A program made the position numbers and the translations under genes. A model generated the notes under the pieces. It saw nothing but the letters and a program-made list of their open reading frames with translations, made no database searches and was not told the DNA's origin. Below, piece after piece: positions 4,818-26,160 of a DNA stretch of 64,000 bases. The stretch lies in assembly GCA_903813345.2 (NCBI GenBank), contig CAIIXF020000010.1, positions 248,001 to 312,000 of the forward strand, in the 5' to 3' direction. Numbering within the stretch: the stretch's first letter is position 1; the number at the start of each line of letters is the position of its first letter. Source of the DNA: Owenia fusiformis. Taxonomy: Eukaryota; Annelida; Polychaeta; Sabellida; Oweniidae.

Positions 4818-6234
4818 GTTTGTATGTTTAACTTTATTTTTTTAACTTTATAGTGCCCTAACCCCTGGAATACAGAAGAAAGTTGGCATTGTGAATTCAA
4901 TCATTTTGCAGCATTACATCAAAAATAACATCTCCAAATGTAACCCGACAGTGTAAATAATTTAAAACTAGAACATGGGACTCAACACATTGGATATGTT
5001 AGTTTTCAATTTAGTACATGTTATCATAATGTTATCAACTCTTTTTGGGTCATATTGATATGATATCCACAAAATATATAAGATATCTTCTTATAAGCCA
5101 TACATCCATGTATGACATCTTTTTGTGTCAAAAACATTAAAACCAGTATATCTGAACACCTGGTTTATCCAAACAATGCACAATCTGAACACCTTTTAGG
5201 TTCCATCTTTTTCTCTCAACACCTAGAAATGTGAACAGTAATCTGTTGTTTCATAAAAAAGTGTTCTAATTACTGGTTTATGATATCTAAACTTTTGGAA
5301 ATACATCCCAATCGTTATGAGTCCTCTTTACTTGACCCATTAATTCATTTGAATCACATTAATAAAATGTCATAAAACTATGTGGTCAAAAGAACTATTG
5401 ACAATATTTTCACATTTCTTCAAAATCACTGATCTCCTGAATGCAAGAACCTTGACATTGAACACCTCCTAATCTAAACCGTTTAAGCCTGTCGCTAGTG
5501 TTCAGATTAGACAGGTGTCACTGTAATAGCACAATTTGGTTTTGACATGCTAAAGTCATCAATGCATCTTTCTTGGCAACCTTACATTTGTTATATGCAG
5601 TGAATACTGATATCCCCCTCCATCCCTGCCTTTGTATGTATGGCCAATACCATTGGGATCAGCAAATGGCATTTGAATATGGAGCTTGCGGTGTTTACAT
5701 TTTTTTTATATTTTTGTTTATTTTGGATTCACAGGATTCTGAATTTTAAAGAAATATGAACACTTTCTCAATAATTCTATTGGCCAAATATCTTCATATC
5801 TTCTGATTTAGATGAATTTAATGGTAATTTAAATTCCCAATTATGCCAAATAAGAAAAATAGACGCAAAAACAACTTGTTCTTGGTCAAATAGTTTATTG
5901 TACCTAACTAAACTAAAACAATATACTACAATATAAGTTACGTAATATTATATTCGTTAATTAATAGATGTTACGTAATAATACTACAGGAAATACATAT
6001 CATGATATTGCATTAAAGTAGTTACATAATAGCATGTATTACATACCTAGCGAAGCATTTGTATGGAAGTCAATGGGAAAGTTAGCGAGCTATATCCACC
6101 GATATTGCCCGATTACCCCGATATAGCCCGCTTACCTCGTTTTGATATTAGATTTCTTTAATAACCATGATAATATCATGACGTCACGTCATTGATGCAA
6201 AGTAACCATGGGAACAAAGGCATGTAATACATCA
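4818..6234. other. AT-rich sequence, no recognised gene
   Basis: Featureless apart from short palindromic runs around TTACGTAA near 5938-5990 and a CRE-like TGACGTCA near 6179 just before the hairpin. Confidence 0.4.
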
Positions 6235-16119: not shown

Positions 16120-17290
16120 AATATAGACAATCACTATTTTCAGTTAGATTGACCAACTTTACTTACAGTTATATTGACAATTATTCTGTACAGTTATTGG
16201 CAATCATTATGTTAAGTGATATAGACAACCTCTATGTACAGTAATATTGACAATTATTCTGAACAGTTATATTGAGAATCACTATGTACAGTAATATAGA
16301 CAATCACTATGTGCATTATGTTGACAATCATAACATTCAGTTATCTTGACAACCATAATGAACTGAACTGAACAATCATTCTGTACAGTTATATTGACAA
16401 TCATTATGTTCAGTGATATAGACAACCACTTTTGTACATTTATATTGACAATCATTACTTACAGTTATATTGACAATTATTCTGTACAGTTATATTGACA
16501 ATCACTATATACAGTAATATTGACAATCTTTATTAACAGTTATATTGGCAATCATTCTGTATAGTTATATTGACAAGCATTGTGTTCAGTGACAATCACT
16601 ATGTTAAGTAATATTGACAATCATTACTTACATTTACATTGGCAATCATTTTGTACAGTTATATTGACAACCATTTACCATGGTGCTCAGTGATATTGAC
16701 CTGTTGACAATCACTATGTACAGTAACAATATTGACAATCTTTATTAACAGTTATATTGGCAATCATTCTGTATAGTTATATTGACAAGCATTGTGTTCA
16801 GTGACAATCACTATGTTAAGTAATATTGACAATCATTACTTACATTTACATTGGCAATCATTTTGTACAGTTATATTGACAACCATTTACCATTGTGCTC
16901 AGTGATATTGACCTGTTGACAATCACTATGTACTGTAACAATATTGACAATCATTACTTACACTTACATTGACAATCATTCTGGACAGTTATATTGACAA
17001 CCATTGTGTTCAGTGACAATCTCTATGTTCAGTAATATTGATAATCATTACTTACATTTACATTGGCAATCATTATGTACAGTTGTATTGACAACCATTG
17101 TGCTCAGTGATATTGACAATCACTATGTACAGTAACACTATTGACAATCATTACTTACACTTACATTGACAATCATTCTGGACAGTTATATTGATAACCA
17201 TTTTGTTCAGAGATATTGACAATCACTATTTGTAGAAATATTGACAATCATAATCTACACTAATGTTGACAATTGCTGTGTTCGGTGATA
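16120..17290. repeat. 25-bp minisatellite with a 212-bp higher-order repeat
   Basis: About 1.17 kb of diverged tandem units close to ACAGTTATATTGACAATCAT plus ATGT (about 25 bp). A block starting at 16524 recurs almost exactly from 16736, giving a 212-bp higher-order period made of about eight units, and a third partial round follows to about 17160. No open frame crosses it. Confidence 0.9.
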
Positions 17291-18689
17291 TTGGAGTCCA
17301 TGTTTGGAGGTTTCTATTAGACTAAGACTTGTATGTCTCCGACAATGTTACTATTCTAACCTCTTCAATCTCCTAAAGCATTATGAAGATGAAATCTGGA
17401 AATCAAAAACTCCATATCATGTTTATAATGTACATGTAAATTCAGAATCCCATAATAATAGCTTTTAGACGGGTAGGAAGGAGGGGTTCCCGTGCACCCG
17501 AAAGATGTATTTTTTTAATGTACATTTTTGTAATCCTAAAGGTCCATACTAAAGATTTCTGCATGTTCCCAGAATGAAATATTGTCCCATGGTATCCATT
17601 GGCGGCCAGCTTGTCGGCCATCTTGAATTTTTGAAAGAGTCGATGTTAATTATCTCAAAGTACAATAGCTTCCACAGTTTTTAGAATTGAAAGCTGTAAG
17701 TGGTACCAAAATGAAGCTATTATAGTGTCCCATATTATAAGGTGTAATAATTATGCAAATTGTCTCATTTGCATAAAATGTGACATCATTAATCGTAATT
17801 TTTGCCTCTTTACAACGATATCACACAATACCTTGCTGCCTGGGTAACCAGTCTTAGTCATCCAAGAACATAAATGAATTTAAATATATAGGTACATTAA
17901 TTTTGAACATATTTGCAATTGAAAGTTTTGGAAAAATATTGTCAGACACTAAGTAATAACACTTCACATGAGTATGTTACTGAAAAGGGGCGTGGCACTT
18001 CTTGAGAAAGAGTTGATTTTAATCATTTCAAAGTACAATAACTTCCAAAGTTTTGAGAATTGAAAGCTGTAAGTGGTACCAAAATGGAGCTAATATAATA
18101 TACTTATAAAAAATGCAATGATAATGCAAATTTTTCCATAATATGTGACAACCTCTATCATTTTTGACTTTTTTTCAATGGTAACGACCAATATCTCTCC
18201 CTCTGGGTAACAGTCTTGGTTATTCATGAGCATTTATGATTTTGAATATATAGGTACATTAATTTTGAACATATTTGCAAATGAAATTTTGGAAAAACTT
18301 TGTAAGAAATAAGTCTTGACACTTCACACGATTATGTAACTGAAAGGGGGGAGGGGGGAGGTTGGCACTTCTTGTTCAAAATGTTAACTTCTAAACACTA
18401 ATGTCAACTTCAGAGGCTGAAGCTGCTCTAGCATAGTCATGTAGATAGAGCCCAATGTTGCTTATTGTAAAAATGTTGGCCAAATTTAGCAGCTTGTGTG
18501 CACTGCTAACAAGTACATGAAGTGTTCATTATGATAGCGTAATTCCAATATGACAGCACAATACAAATCAGGCTATTTTATTGTTTATATGCAAAAGTCG
18601 ATCTGATGAGACATGTTAGAAGTGGTAGTGGTTAATAATGCCCAGATCAAAGAAACGCAAGATAGATATTGAAGATAGGCCTACATCAA

Positions 18690-20573
18690 AGTATGGGCAT
18701 CCTCAGCTTCAATCATGACGCCATCTGTATTGTCCATCAGTTGGAGCTGTAACCCAAATACTGAGTATATGATTTAATGTATGTGTCATTCAGTTGCCAT
18801 GCACTTTGGTCAGTTGGCGGTTTCTTCCTTGCCCCAAAGTCTGAGGTTTGATGGAGTTGAGACCAGGTCAGGGAAAGCTATTAATAGGAAATTGAGCTCC
18901 CCTTGTTCCTTGGACCAAAGGTCATTCCATTTCAAGAAGTGCTGAGAAGTGAGGGTTCCCAGGTAATGTCGTAAATCTGGTCACTGAAATTGGGGAGTAA
19001 TGTCATAACGCCACGATATATGACTTGAGTCAATGGCTTTAAGCAACTTGTCCAGGTCCCTTGAGACTTCAGCTGTATTGTTCAAACCACGCAAGGTTTT
19101 GTCATATTTCTTCTCTGGACATTTAATAATTTTATCTTGCACTGTTGGTATTTGCTTGCCCTTTATTTTGAACTGCATTGGAGAAAGCTTGTCATCAACC
19201 AAAACCATGCTTCTTGACCTGGTTGTTTTTTTAACTTCATGCAAGTCCGGTTTCTTTCCATTCATTCATTCTTTCCATAGCTAATAGAACCCATCTGGTA
19301 CCCACCACTGAACTGGTCATAACTGTGATGTCATCCATGAAAGCTCTGTATGGTAGGTGTTTTGCACCGTCATTTGCTTGTGGAACCTTACACTGCATCA
19401 TCCCTGCCTTGAGCAGTAGGTTCATGGATGTTGAAGAGAACTACTGGTACAGTGCAGTCTGCCACTATTCATTTCTCTGAACTCTGCTAATTAGTGGTAT
19501 AATTGCCAAATGTATTGTGCAACTTCAAGGTGTCTGTGTGTCCAATTGTCAGATTGACTACAGTACTAGTATCTACAACTATTTTTGATGTTATGAGTAT
19601 TGGCTATCAATTTTTTCAATTGTTCTTCAACATGTATTGTAATGACTTCAGTATGAATGAAATGTACCTTGGTGTTCTGGTCCTGGATTGTAATATTGGT
19701 TCTCGATTGGAGGGGGAGGGGGATGTTAGACATTGATTCTCTTTCTTGGCTTCTTTCACAAGTTGGCTTATTGCTGCTATATGCACCCTTGATGTCTTGG
19801 GATACCACTTTTCTGAATGCTTGGCAGGCCAGTAGGAAATAACTGTGAGGCTTGGCCACAATGGCCCAGAAGATCTTTTCCTCGGTATCCAAAAATGATG
19901 TATACCTGAACTGGTTCAGTCCCTCAAATTTTAGCTCCTTTGGAATGAAGCACCTTTCCGCCGAAGCCCAAGTCCTTGCTAGGTTTTTCTTGTTCTGGAT
20001 GCTTGTTAGCAATCACCATAGATGTATAAACAGCTTACCGCAGATGTATTAACAGCTTACCGCATGTCACAACTGTTGGACCTGGCGCTGAGCCTTCCTG
20101 ATGATTGTTCTTACCTCATCAAGCTTGAAATTTGACTAGTCAAACGGTTTTGATGATGAATCTGGTGGGATGTCAATTGGAAAATTATCTAATGGCATCT
20201 CTCGATCTGGGTCACTCTGTGCTGCCAAAGTATTTGCTTCTGCTTGATCCTTCGTACATGCCATATGGGCACTCTTTGGTTCCCTAACACGTTTGATGTG
20301 AGCCTATAGAGATTTTCAAAGAATGTCTTTCCGGTCCTACGCTTCTCTTTTCCTGAGCGTTTATATCTTTGGAAGAAGAATCTTTGGATGACTAAGATAA
20401 AGTAATCTCTTAAGAAGCATCTGTTGGAGCTCTCTGATCTTTTCGCTAGATAATTCCTCTACTCCTTGTCCTCGCATCTGGGATGGAAATCGTTCTAACT
20501 TAGACAAGAGGTAGCATAGTGAAGAGGCTGGGCTCTGCCTCCCACTTCTATTTGGTGCATAACTGCATACCAC
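18690..20573 (-). pseudogene. Decayed reverse-transcriptase gene (non-LTR-type RT family)
   Basis: Minus-strand pieces in several frames, in N-to-C order, match an RT family I recall as widespread in amphioxus and cnidarian proteomes. 20012-19566 has CFIPKE-like and QFRYTSFLDTEEKIFWAIVA (the usual QFRTISLL.VEGKIFF); 19425-19237 has YRAFMDDITVMTSSVVGTRW with the palm-box acids FMDD at 19341-19330; 19265-18981 has KKTTRSRSMVLVDDKLS and FKIKGKQIPTV; lower down come a piece reading DLW-KEQGELNFLL-STPSNLRLWGKEE (about 18915-18825) and YRWRHD (about 18715), matching the family's C-terminal zinc-binding region. The family is an RNA-templated DNA polymerase of mobile elements. It is heavily decayed and cannot encode a working protein. 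The N-terminal piece 20573-20361 is assigned only by position. Confidence 0.8.
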
Positions 20574-20630
20574 CCTCTTGTCTTGATAGGTCTTGGATTT
20601 TTAAGCTGATGAGATATTTTAGTCGGTCTT

Positions 20631-20986
20631 CAGGGTTCTCACTAGGCTTTTAGGCACCGGAGATGTCTTAAAACCCTCTTGCTCCAGAGTCTAATAGCTT
20701 TTCCGGAGTCTATAGTGTTTTTTCCGGAGTCTAATCTTACATTTTTGTCACATTATTTGCGGTAAAACTCTTGAGAAAATTCATAAAACTGGATACAAAC
20801 AAGGAATAGGTAGTCAGAAACCTTTTAGAAATAAATATTGAGATTAACATAGCAAGATAATCTTAAGAAGTATGTTGAAAAGTATACTTATAGGATCAGA
20901 AATGGGGGAGAAGTAGTCGCAATACTGCAAAAAAGTAGTCACAATACCGCTAAAAATCCAGGTCTAAAAATTTCCTGAGAACCCTG
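20631..20986. mobile_element. 356-bp MITE with CAGGGTTCTCA ends
   Basis: Left end CAGGGTTCTCA and right end TGAGAACCCTG are an exact 11-bp inverted repeat, flanked on both sides by GTCTT (20626-20630 and 20987-20991), a 5-bp target duplication. The terminal sequence resembles hAT ends, but hAT elements usually duplicate 8 bp, so the superfamily is open. It lies next to the RT remnant inside the 17466-22856 element and is therefore younger than that element. Confidence 0.75.
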
Positions 20987-21384
20987 GTCTTCTGAAGGTA
21001 CTGTGAGCATCATTGAAGATGATGGTCCTACTGTGTTTTGACATCAGCACTGAGTTTCTGGAAGAGGTCAGTTGAGAGTCCAGTCGGATGTCTTGGATAA
21101 AACATTGGACTGAGGTAGAGGCTTAATACATATTGAGTTAATTATATAGCTTTAACAACTAAATACTATGGGTACCCATTTTAGTTCATTGCCTATCCTA
21201 AAATGATATGGGGATATGTGGTCATTCGTATCTGTATAGTACTTAGTCCAAAAGCGATACAGATTATAATATCTTTGGCTGAAATTTAAATGTCTGCCAA
21301 ACAGACCAACAAGAACTTCTGAACAAGCTAGGAATAAGGGACATCACTTGGCTACTTTCTAAAAGTCAAAAGCTATATTTTACA

Positions 21385-21918
21385 CCCGGGGGGTTCACTG
21401 TATATAAACCTTGACAGGGGGTACCTCTTTTAACATTTGGTATGGCAATGGATCCAAATTTTAGGATCTGGAATGGGAATGTCCCAAAATTATGACTTTT
21501 GAGGTATGACAATGGTCGAATTTTTCTACTTCATGGTACAAGAATGGTTATGGAGAATATATTACCTCTCACTTGTAGTATGGGATTGGTCTAGTTTTTA
21601 CAAATGTCCTTAATTTAACGTTGTTTTTGGATCATTCTCCTAAAAGATCTGCCTTCTTCTAGGGGCTTTAGACATTTTGCATTCTCTTGGTCTTATATTT
21701 TTGGGATATTTGGAATGGCATTAGCCCTATATTTGGACATTTGGTATAGCATTGGTCTTATATTTTGATATTTGGTATGGCTTTTGGGCGTTATTTTGGT
21801 TGGTATGGGAAGTTTTGGGAACACATTGAAATTCGACAGATTGGTATGGGAACATAATGATATCTGAGGGCTCAGCCTAGGACCCCTACAGAATTGTGTA
21901 TTCAGTGAACCCCTGGGT
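21385..21918. mobile_element. hAT-like MITE (534 bp, 8-bp target duplication)
   Basis: Ends CCCGGGGGGTTCACTG and CAGTGAACCCCTGGGT are inverted repeats, flanked by ATTTTACA at 21377-21384 and 21919-21926, an exact 8-bp duplication as made by hAT transposases. The interior repeats GGTATGG-type phrases (for example TTTGGTATGGCA) and has no transposase. Confidence 0.75.
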
Positions 21919-22856
21919 ATTTTACAGATGATACATTGACTATATAATAACATTACAGATTTTCAACAAGATCCAAGCCCCTTTTCAGAACAATAATCAT
22001 TTGAAAGGTCATACCTTAATTTCTGACAATGTTTTTCTAAAACTTTCAATTGCAAATATGTTCAAAATGAATGTATACATTTAATATATTTTATATATTC
22101 ATGAGAGACCAAGGCTGGTCACTCAGAGGAAAATGCAATATGCATTACCGTTGAAAAAGGGCAAAAATAATGATTGATGATGTCATATTTTATGCAAATA
22201 TGGTAATTTACATTATTATCGTATCTTATAATGTAGGATATTGTGATACCTTCAGTTTGGTACCATTAACAGCTTTCAACTCTCAAAACTGTGGAAGTTA
22301 TTGTACTTTGAAATGATTAACATCAATTCTCTCACAGGAAGTGCCACGCCCCTTTTCAGTTACATAATCATGTGTCTGACAAAGTTTTTTCAAAACTTTC
22401 AATTGCATATATGTTCAAAATTAATGTACCTATATATTTAAATTCATTTATGTTCATGAATGACTAAGACTGATCACTCAGGCGAAAAGGTATAATGCGA
22501 TACCGTTGTAAAGAGGCAAGAATTATGATTGGTGATGTCACATTTTATGCAAATGAGACAATTTGAATAATTATTGCATCTGATAATATAGGATACTATA
22601 ATAGCTTCATTTTGGTACCACTTACAGCTTTCAATTCTCAAAACGGTGGAAGTTATTGTACTTTGAGATAATTAACATCAACTTTTTCAAAAATTCAAGA
22701 TGGCCGACAAGATGGCCGCCAATGAATACCATGGGACAATATTTCATTCTGGGAACATGCAAAAATCTTTTGTATGGACCTTTAGGATTACAAAAATGTA
22801 CATTAAAAAAATACATCTTTCGGGTGCACGGGGACCATACCTTCCTACTAGACTAC

Positions 22857-24109
22857 TTTATTGATGTGTATAGAAAATGTTACTGTGGATGATTACTTGT
22901 CAAGTTGAAAGCCCATGCTAGAGGGTTTTTCAAGCTTCATGTTTGTTCAAGCTTCATGTTTGTTCAAGCTTCATGTTCCCTGCATTTCTAAATTCCAAGG
23001 ATATTACATTTTATCATATCATTGTTAGAAATTCCTACAGGCTGCGGGCAATACTTTTTGCAAATATCATTAAAAGATGTAAACAGGTATTGCCCTCCAT
23101 AGAATGAAATATTTGGTTATAGCGCACATTTAATTTGCAATTCTATAAATTATAGTTGCTCAAGATTGTAGAAGTATATTGTATTATTGTTACATTTTAT
23201 TTTCGTAATGCATCGTATCACAGACAAAACAACTTTTAATAACTTACTTGCATTTGCATTTCACAAATGTGATCTGCCATGACAAGTGACTAATGCCAAT
23301 GATGTACTTGTATTCTTCAATAGGAGAGAACTGGGGACTGATAAACATTGTCATGGAGAGAGAGTTTCATTGCAATCAAAATAGTTGAGGTCAGGTGCAT
23401 TCTCCTCATCCGATTATTTTGGATACATTGATCTGACCCAGCTGTACTGCTACTGTACATCCGTTAGTGGTATGTGTACATGTGCATCTTCATCTTGAAG
23501 GAGGGTCATGATTAACTACAAAATCAATAACATATCACTGTACATGTAGATTTACCATTACAATTATATATTTCGAAAATAAATGAAAGCACTTGCACGT
23601 GGCCAATTAGACAGGGAATTCAGCATGTTTAGCTGAGGAAGAAAAAACAGTCAAAAATAAAATATTCAACTTTCTGAACTAGGCCTAAAGCTATGGAAAA
23701 AGACACTGTATCGACGCACTGTGCAGCGATTATGAAAGAACTTACCTTGTTTGAGATATATGAAGTGTAATTTCATCTTGAGAATGTAGAAGCTTTTGAA
23801 TGAGAGCCAAAAACCGATCAGATTTTGATTTATTTTTTAGTTAACTTTTTGTTCCTCTAGTTTGAAGAGTTTTGACAAATCTAGGTCATGGCAAGAAATC
23901 GACTAATTTTGACTCAATAAACTTATAAAATGGCTTGTAAAATATCATAACATAAGTAAATAAATAAGTTAAATGATAAAAGAGTTCAAATAAATCGGGT
24001 GTAGCTTGAAACTAAGAGAAAGAAAAAAGAAAAGTATTTTGTAACCAGGAAGTAAAGTTTACCGGTGGCATTTCAAGCCTAACTAGGAGCGATTGCATTT
24101 GTTACATAC
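22857..24109. other. Intergenic or intronic sequence
   Basis: No gene recognised. A small direct triplication of TTCAAGCTTCATGTT lies near 22930-22975. Confidence 0.35.
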
Positions 24110-24215: not shown

Positions 24216-25163
24216 GATAAATTTTGGCTGAATTTTGTTTTTTACTTTCACTTCCGTAATGGGGAATATCGATTTTACGACTTCATCAAGAGGAGATTGA
24301 GATGTTTGAGCCATGTATTATATTGCAAAAAGGAGTCCATAACATTTAATATACACAAAACACAACGTATTACCCATACAGATGTTTTTATTGAGCACAT
24401 TTATTGACAGCAACGGGCACCATAGTTTTACGACATTGCCATAAAGTAGTTCTCATATCATAACAATAACACGATGACGTCACGCTAGATTTGATTTAGT
24501 CCACCACGTCCTTAATACGAGGGGTGATCAGGAATTTCTGGACCGTTGGCTCTATTTTTGCCATTTTTTATCCTTTCTTAATGATTTTTTCACATAATAT
24601 AACCCAAATATATAGGATCATGAAGATTTGATTGTTCTATGACATCATTATCCTATTATTTTTGTTCCTGTGGTAACTGGTGACGCAACAAGGTGGAGCT
24701 CAGAAAAAATACCGAATTTGAAAAGCAACAGTAATTTATATGATGTAAGTACACTGTATTCACTGCTAAATATGTGACATATTGTAATAATTTGTATCAT
24801 GTCATTAAATATATTCATTAATGTTCATTGCAACTCTCATTATACTTCCTTCAATTCTTTTTTTTTATTTCATTAAAACATGATAACATTTTTACATATT
24901 CGTGGTCGTGACACCTACATAGGTATATAATTGACCACATTTAAAATCATTATTCTAAAATTTGCAAGTGCTTGAAAGTTTACCGCAACATGACACTGGG
25001 TGGACCATAATTTGTCTCATGAATTAAAAACATTGGTAAAAAATAATGTACAATAAAGAGGACGGAATTACCTTACGTTTGCAGAACATCAAAATCAGTA
25101 TTTTGAAAAAGTGTTATCTTTAAAAAGACGTTTTAGTTTATAAATAATCCTTTAAAGTCGTAA

Positions 25164-25653
25164 CACCCCAGTCACATTTGTCGCACGGCGGCCGCAAGTC
25201 GACCGCAGATCAATTAAATCGGTGAATTTCTGCGGCGAGCGTAGAAAAACTACGCTCGCCTTGCGGCCTCCGTACGGCGTATGCAGATTTTTACTGGCCG
25301 CAGGTTAAGGCGTAGAAATTATAACTCGGAGTTATAATTTTTGATCATTTCTGAGGTCGCCGTAGAAATCAACTGGCTCGACAATATTGAATCATTATTT
25401 GTCAATGTTTCACGATCACTTTTCATTTGATATTACATCCAGCACTATGAATAACATTTATAAGTTGTCCCGATGTAAATAAAATGAAAAAAGTATTATT
25501 TATCAACAGAAATTTAAAATTCACCGTGCGGCTGCCGTGGGATATGTGACTGCAAAAGTATGAGAGCGCAGAAATTCCACGGCGAGCGTAGAAATGTTAC
25601 TGGCCGCAGAAATGATAGACCGCAAGGTCGCCGTAGGAAATGTGACTGGGGTG
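25164..25653. mobile_element. Harbinger-like MITE, copy 1 (490 bp)
   Basis: Ends CACCCCAGTCACATTT and AAATGTGACTGGGGTG are a 16-bp exact inverted repeat. Flanks are TAA (25161-25163) and TTA (25654-25656); the equivalent site on the opposite mariner arm reads TAGTTACCAGC, so the target was TTA with one side changed. TWA targets are typical of PIF/Harbinger. GC-rich relative to surroundings, with many GCGAGCGTAG-type and GGTCGCCGTAG-type sub-repeats. No coding. Confidence 0.8.
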
Positions 25654-25670
25654 TTACTAGCATTTTGTAA

Positions 25671-26160
25671 CACCCCAGTCACATTTGTCGCACGGAGGCC
25701 GTGCGTCGACCGCAGATCAATTAAATCAGTGTATTTCTGCGGCGAGCGTAGGAAAACTACGCTCGCCTTGCGGCCTCCGTACGGCGTATCCAGTTTTTTA
25801 CAGGCCGCAGGGTCGCCGTAGAAATTATAACTCGGAGTTATAATATTTGTTCATTTCTGAGGTCCCCGTAGAAATCAACTGGCTCAACAAGATTGAATCA
25901 TTATTTGTAAATGTTTCACGATCACTTTACATTTGATATTACATCCTAGCACTATGAATAACATTTATAAATTGTCCCGATGTAAATAAAATGAAAAAAG
26001 TATTATTTATCAACAGAAATTTAAAATTCACCGTGCGGTTGCCGTGGGAAATGTGACTGCAAAAGTATGAGAGCGCAGAAATTCCACGGCGAGCGTAGAA
26101 ATGTTACTGGCCGCAGAATTGATAGACCGCAAGGTCGCCGTAGGAAATGTGACTGGGGTG
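25671..26160. mobile_element. Harbinger-like MITE, copy 2 (490 bp)
   Basis: Same orientation, same length and nearly the same sequence as copy 1, 17 bp downstream. Flanked by TAA at 25668-25670 and 26161-26163; the opposite mariner arm (complement of about 26447-26460) shows the single, uninterrupted site GCATTTTGTAAGCATTTG. This proves an independent insertion and not a tandem duplication of copy 1. Confidence 0.85.

Follow-up and report, generated by a model that had tools for sequence, protein, structure and literature searches.

The window analysed here, a 64,000-nucleotide stretch of the genome of the annelid Owenia fusiformis (contig CAIIXF020000010.1; C10:248001-312000), contains an element in which two long terminal inverted repeats (TIRs, the arms) enclose remnants of a reverse transcriptase (RT) gene (Table 1). 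A first-pass annotation had described inverted arms some 0.9 kb long, each composed of a tandem pair of ~370-bp modules, and self-alignment recovered both: as inverted repeats they share 83% identity across 891 columns and score 911 bits, compared with a top score of 33.7 bits in 20 mononucleotide shuffles, with modules of about 345-373 bp. The element ends at 22855, one base short of the previously given 22856. The 4 RT motifs pointed out in the same annotation all lie on the minus strand and in order, but in separate frames, and the RT remnant aligns in pieces to the intact 1147-amino-acid open reading frame (ORF) of a relative found elsewhere in the genome (locus L045), within its residues 234-711 and 880-952. 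Searches against Pfam returned nothing over the cut-off for 6 RT-side frames of the window and no match for 4 arm and non-RT frames. As argued below, the element is, with high probability, a copy of a non-autonomous long-TIR DNA transposon with a captured, broken tandem long interspersed nuclear element (LINE), multiplied as a composite by a transposase acting in trans, with the RT as a passive passenger.

Table 1. Features of the element in the window and of its immediate flanks.
Feature	Position in window	Strand	Remarks
Left flank CTTT	17462..17465	.	3-bp duplication imperfect in window copy
Left (L-type) terminal inverted repeat arm	17466..18400	+	Starts TAGACGGGTAGGAAGG
Left-arm modules	17633-18005 and 18006-18350
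R2-like LINE ORF, broken remnant	18712..20453	-	Several frame breaks
YRWRHD-encoding DNA	18712-18729	-	Single window match; 0 in 100 shuffles
Stretch with common deletion junction	18935..18978	-	About residue 711-717 joined to 872-880
SRSMVL motif	within frame 18981-19265	-
FMDDITVMT motif	within frame 19237-19440	-
QFRYTSFLDTEEKIF motif	within frame 19566-20012	-
3'-end remnants of preceding tandem LINE unit, upstream of RT	20475..21122	-	DNA match
Insertion of ~350 bp inside preceding-LINE-unit remnant	20632..20984	.
Right (R-type) arm, two modules	21960..22855	-	Inward reading starts TAGTCTAGTAGGAAGG
Right flank CTTT	22856..22859	.	Counterpart of 17462-17465

The genome searched comprises 498 Mb in 525 contigs, with contigs C1-C12 measuring 32-62 Mb each. 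DNA searches with either arm or with one of two core pieces, in each of which the best 40 loci were scored, brought back largely identical loci with the order of the parts kept. A pattern describing the terminus matched the genome 123 times (59 forward and 64 reverse), whereas the reversed control gave no match in either direction. Among the 100 of these 123 ends that were listed, 41 pairs of L-type and R-type ends with a spacing of 4.1-7.7 kb could be recognized, and another 6 left ends, identified when the arms were searched, raise the number to at least 47 L/R pairs. No facing ends of one type were found when the terminal 34 bases were compared, and 12 listed ends had no partner within 12 kb. 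The window copy and 20 others (L025-L044) were read base by base. The ends are fixed, with TAG... in many copies, and many copies have 3 left-arm modules compared with 2 in the window. On C12, one end of the L type and one of the R type, oriented as a pair would be, lie 65 kb apart (C12:20070659 and C12:20135396), reflecting either a large insertion or chance neighbourhood, and the core of L032 breaks off.

Exact 3-bp duplications were found directly outside TAGACGGG... and ...TAGACTA in 18 of the 19 copies with both flanks readable, and a 4-bp flank match in 1 of the 19; when flanks from different copies were compared as a control, a 3-bp match occurred in 14 of 342 comparisons. The duplications outside the arms indicate that the unit is mobile: arm, core and arm move as a whole, as a DNA-transposon-like element. 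The copies could instead have arisen by segmental duplication or gene conversion, as might be suggested by the R-type sequence present along the left arm at C6:9905720. We consider such an origin highly improbable, given the exact 3-bp duplications, the presence of copies on every one of contigs C1-C12 and the differences between their flanks over the 25 bp compared. The median identity among copies, 0.937 over the RT stretch used for codon analysis, implies that the spread was not very recent. The ~350-bp insertion is present in 6 of the 40 scored loci, including the window, and 3 of its carriers (the window, L025 and L026) cluster together in a tree, indicating that it was inherited within the window's own sub-lineage and that the spread was not a single burst. 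At C6:9905720-9906627, the left arm resembles the R-type arm at 93% over 887 query bases, a sign of conversion between arms.

A 94-residue RT fragment from the window, used as a probe, gave 105 matches in the genome: 46 of the 47 pairs enclose 52 of them, 3 more, from 2 loci, adjoin a listed end that stands alone, and for the remaining 50 the surrounding 9 kb hold no listed end. In L027, the sole pair without a fragment match, RT remnants were revealed by tblastn with the intact protein, and the RT remnant is thus present in 47 of the 47 located pairs. The first-pass annotation had made its proposal of a type of mobile element that combines RT and TIRs depend on arms and RT being found repeatedly together, in the same order and with target duplications outside the arms, and in these respects its expectations are borne out. 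It had also named the finding that would speak against the proposal, namely, most RT copies without arms or most arm pairs without RT: all located arm pairs hold an RT remnant, and the RTs with long frames lie apart from the listed ends. Indeed, the longest open RT frame among the 55 matches that listed arm ends enclose or adjoin spans 230 codons, whereas 38 of the 50 matches without a nearby listed end lie in open frames of at least 500 codons (at least 1000 codons for 23 matches; an internal stop was flagged in one of the 38). Among these 50, C4:28452139 (left arm, L035) and C12:5454284 (right arm) are in fact arm-bearing, C10:143512 also shows core matches, and C5:6444501 and C1:34135950 are 66-70% identical.

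The nearest long-framed relative found, L045 (C8:18904291), is 68% identical to the window RT over the fragment and carries an RVT_1 domain at residues 412-659 (E = 8e-20). The top solved-structure matches of its residues 344-784 are R2 proteins (E = 1e-23), whereas its C-terminal 207 residues gave no significant solved-structure match. The protein further contains a C2H2-type finger near the N terminus (at 57) and a CCHC knuckle of the form CX2CX8HX4C (at 921); an N-terminal finger and CCHC spacing as in L045 have been described for LINEs with a restriction-like endonuclease (RLE; PMC5678591). A candidate RLE, recognized by eye, is represented by LRPD at 1031 and ELTVPWE at 1049. By its RVT_1 domain, R2 structure matches, finger and knuckle, L045 resembles the R2-like RLE non-long-terminal-repeat (non-LTR) retrotransposons (R2, NeSL and HERO clades). 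Such a LINE is the source of the passenger, of which the window copy holds only a broken remnant. A 569-bp stretch of the 3' end of L045 is repeated identically directly upstream of the full unit (1245-1813 and 4987-5555), and L045 is therefore a head-to-tail tandem, an arrangement that R2-like LINEs may often adopt in this genome. No match to the arm sequence was found around L045 in the 8 kb read. A search of the genome with the RVT_1 family yielded at least 150 other RTs and was uninformative for the window RT. Further candidates for head-to-tail tandems are two pairs of RT matches, each 3.8 kb apart on one strand (C4:26950244/26954064 and C9:36648525/36652325).

Comparison with the L045 protein revealed the same lesions in copy after copy. 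Remnants from residues 195-717 are present in all 21 copies read (extending to 726 in L028 and to 739 in L044) and pieces of residues 872-952 in 19 of the 21 (not in L027 and L029), whereas residues 740-865 and 953-990 found no match in any of the 21. Downstream of the RT, the last ~195 residues of the protein are missing from all 21 copies, with no piece from residue 990 onward there. Pieces of residues 997-1136 occur instead upstream of the RT, and never elsewhere, in 16 of the 21 copies by tblastn; the exceptions are L028, L031, L032, L040 and the window, which shows one by DNA match (at 20475-20639, 20986-21049 and 21053-21122, remnants not reached by tblastn). These upstream pieces look as if derived from the tail of a LINE unit that preceded in tandem, and the order of pieces, one unit's tail followed by the next unit's body, is the same as in the free tandem LINE L045. 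The deletion junction is alike in all 19 aligned copies, with an additional 33 bp there in 7. An exact junction pattern, which misses mutated joins, matched the genome 38 times; 35 of the matches lie inside 34 of the 47 pairs, the 13 pairs without a match saying little, and each of the remaining 3 has at least one arm nearby. The common junction and the missing end across copies imply that the RT was damaged before the family spread. They also bear on the possibility that the LINE prefers the inner sequence of the transposon as a target, so that arms and RT met by repeated independent insertion. RLE-type LINEs are often target-specific (PMC4640811), which would favour such a scenario; yet a single deletion junction and a single order of pieces recur in the copies read, and because the single junction points to one event followed by copying, we reject repeated insertion as extremely improbable.

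Codon positions tell the same order of events. Across 749 sites, each covered by 12 or more of 19 copies, the sites varying among the 19 copies are distributed evenly over codon positions 1, 2 and 3 (71/61/68; P 0.65), whereas the fixed differences that set the copies apart from the intact ORF are concentrated at the third position (23/22/62; P 3e-7), and the two patterns differ from each other (P 2.7e-4). The uneven fixed differences together with the even polymorphism indicate constraint before the spread and none seen after it. Earlier constraint is compatible with constraint inside the arms and, together with the joint presence of arms and RT remnant in all located pairs, could be taken to favour a functional element in which the RT works with the long TIRs, the copies being decayed descendants of an intact master that exists or existed. 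Several observations make this very unlikely: the disabling deletion and the missing end are common to the copies read, long open RT frames are found away from listed arm ends, and the pieces are ordered as in the free tandem LINE. Moreover, target-primed reverse transcription does not usually give exact ends with 3-bp duplications, so that the termini of the family are unlike those expected from the usual LINE mechanism. An intact or constrained RT between arms was encountered neither in the 21 copies read nor among the 55 RT matches at listed ends. A once-intact element of arms and a working R2-like RT, constrained inside the arms before the common deletion and survived by the present family as its dead branch, is in our estimate just as improbable.

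We therefore favour a captured LINE carried by a long-TIR transposon. An R2-like LINE tandem insertion would have entered, or been taken up by, the ancestor of the transposon family, after which the captured LINE would have lost its middle and end. The defective composite would then have multiplied to at least 47 paired copies, with a transposase supplied from elsewhere acting on the arm ends and the RT having no role in the movement. Several points weigh against this scenario. Of the matched termini, 23 lie outside the list, and the base-by-base reading covers only 20 copies besides that of the window, whose own duplication is imperfect (TTT and CTT, or CTTT left and right should one T have been gained). 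The codon differences that are fixed combine changes on the branch of the intact LINE with changes on the stem of the family and do not tell where the constrained RT was located. Flanks were read for one intact relative, the lack of arms at the others being taken from the coordinates of listed ends. Finally, no transposase is tied to the arms, and the candidate at L049, beside an unpaired end, matched no library. With respect to the first-pass annotation, the notion that RT and TIRs are paired in one type of mobile element holds for the co-occurrence in 47 of 47 pairs and for mobility with 3-bp duplications, but not for a functional pairing: the deletion and the missing end predate the spread, the copies show no constraint among themselves and the long-frame RTs lie more than 9 kb from listed ends. 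Its alternative, an RT gene that landed in a foldback, is the better description, the foldback being a long-TIR element, to which we add that the composite then multiplied.

Taken as a whole, this is a transposon family with a dead captured LINE, known in kind, and gives no evidence for a new RT-driven element. Captured foreign sequence is carried by other DNA transposons, as in the captures by Pack-MULEs and Helitrons, in which the transposon likewise multiplies a fragment it does not need; those captures take host genes, whereas the piece captured here is a tandem LINE insertion. In architecture, the family resembles the Foldback/Galileo-type elements, such as Galileo in Drosophila, which have long TIRs, tandem repeats in the arms, variable arm structure, non-autonomous copies and other elements nested inside (PMC4168063). 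However, Galileo belongs to the P superfamily and generates duplications of 7 bp, sometimes 8 bp (same source), whereas the duplications here are of 3 bp and reading the copies brought no transposase to light. A literature search for RTs with long TIRs returned nothing, and among publications on foldback elements with captured retrotransposons or non-autonomous DNA transposons with retrotransposon fragments, titles and abstract openings mention no such composite, from which we do not claim its absence from print. The family shows that a joint mechanism does not follow from finding RT and TIRs together in 47 of 47 located pairs, and offers a clean worked example of how common lesions and the codon-position contrast tell a passenger from an engine. 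The composite also preserves the LINE as a fossil record, and a DNA transposon of this kind could be labelled a LINE in automated repeat annotation.

Regarding the mobilizing enzyme, none of the copies read revealed a transposase, the Pfam search having covered the window frames and one frame of L035. The latter (L035:68-4435, minus strand; C4:28.45 Mb) is a single open frame of 1456 amino acids encoding a nested gag-pol of the LTR type (protease, RT, RNase H and integrase), which has no relation to the family RT and is present in one copy. A short-terminus pattern for divergent arm relatives gave 4 matches, compared with 7 in the control. The interiors beside 4 unpaired ends (L046-L049) were read in part. 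L046, at the C5:19.030 Mb end, matches neither the element nor the LINE; L047 and L048 (C2:18.089 and C10:36.842 Mb) show no match to the element or to any of the loci read, and all their frames are below 100 codons. Only L049 (C1:24567700-24568500) holds multicopy coding sequence, which is broken and lies ~1 kb inside an unpaired R-type end at C1:24.569 Mb; an 84-residue piece of it has 61 matches in the genome, including frames of 1526 codons at C8:28982948, C8:34483943 and C1:31435802. This coding sequence is a possible source of the transposase. Its tentative identification as an XPG-like transposon protein found no support in Pfam, in an XPG_I search of the genome or in solved structures.

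A doubtful candidate for the enzyme is a transposase of the AcademX type, a nuclease-bearing Academ lineage. Its reported duplications of 3 or 4 bp fit those of the element, although 3 bp is not specific, being given for Zator as well (PMC10045372), and suits other groups too. The multicopy sequence inside the R-type end, with its suspected XPG-like resemblance, would also fit, but the searches listed above do not back the XPG guess, and L049 adjoins one unpaired end only.

Two further repeats were noted in the window. A satellite-like array, made up of 45 copies of a ~25-bp unit (ATATTGACAATCATTATGTACAGTT) and showing a higher period of 212 bp, occupies 16121-17273 and stops ~190 bp left of the element, and a unit of ~507 bp is present at 25160-26000 in two direct copies that are 93-98% alike.

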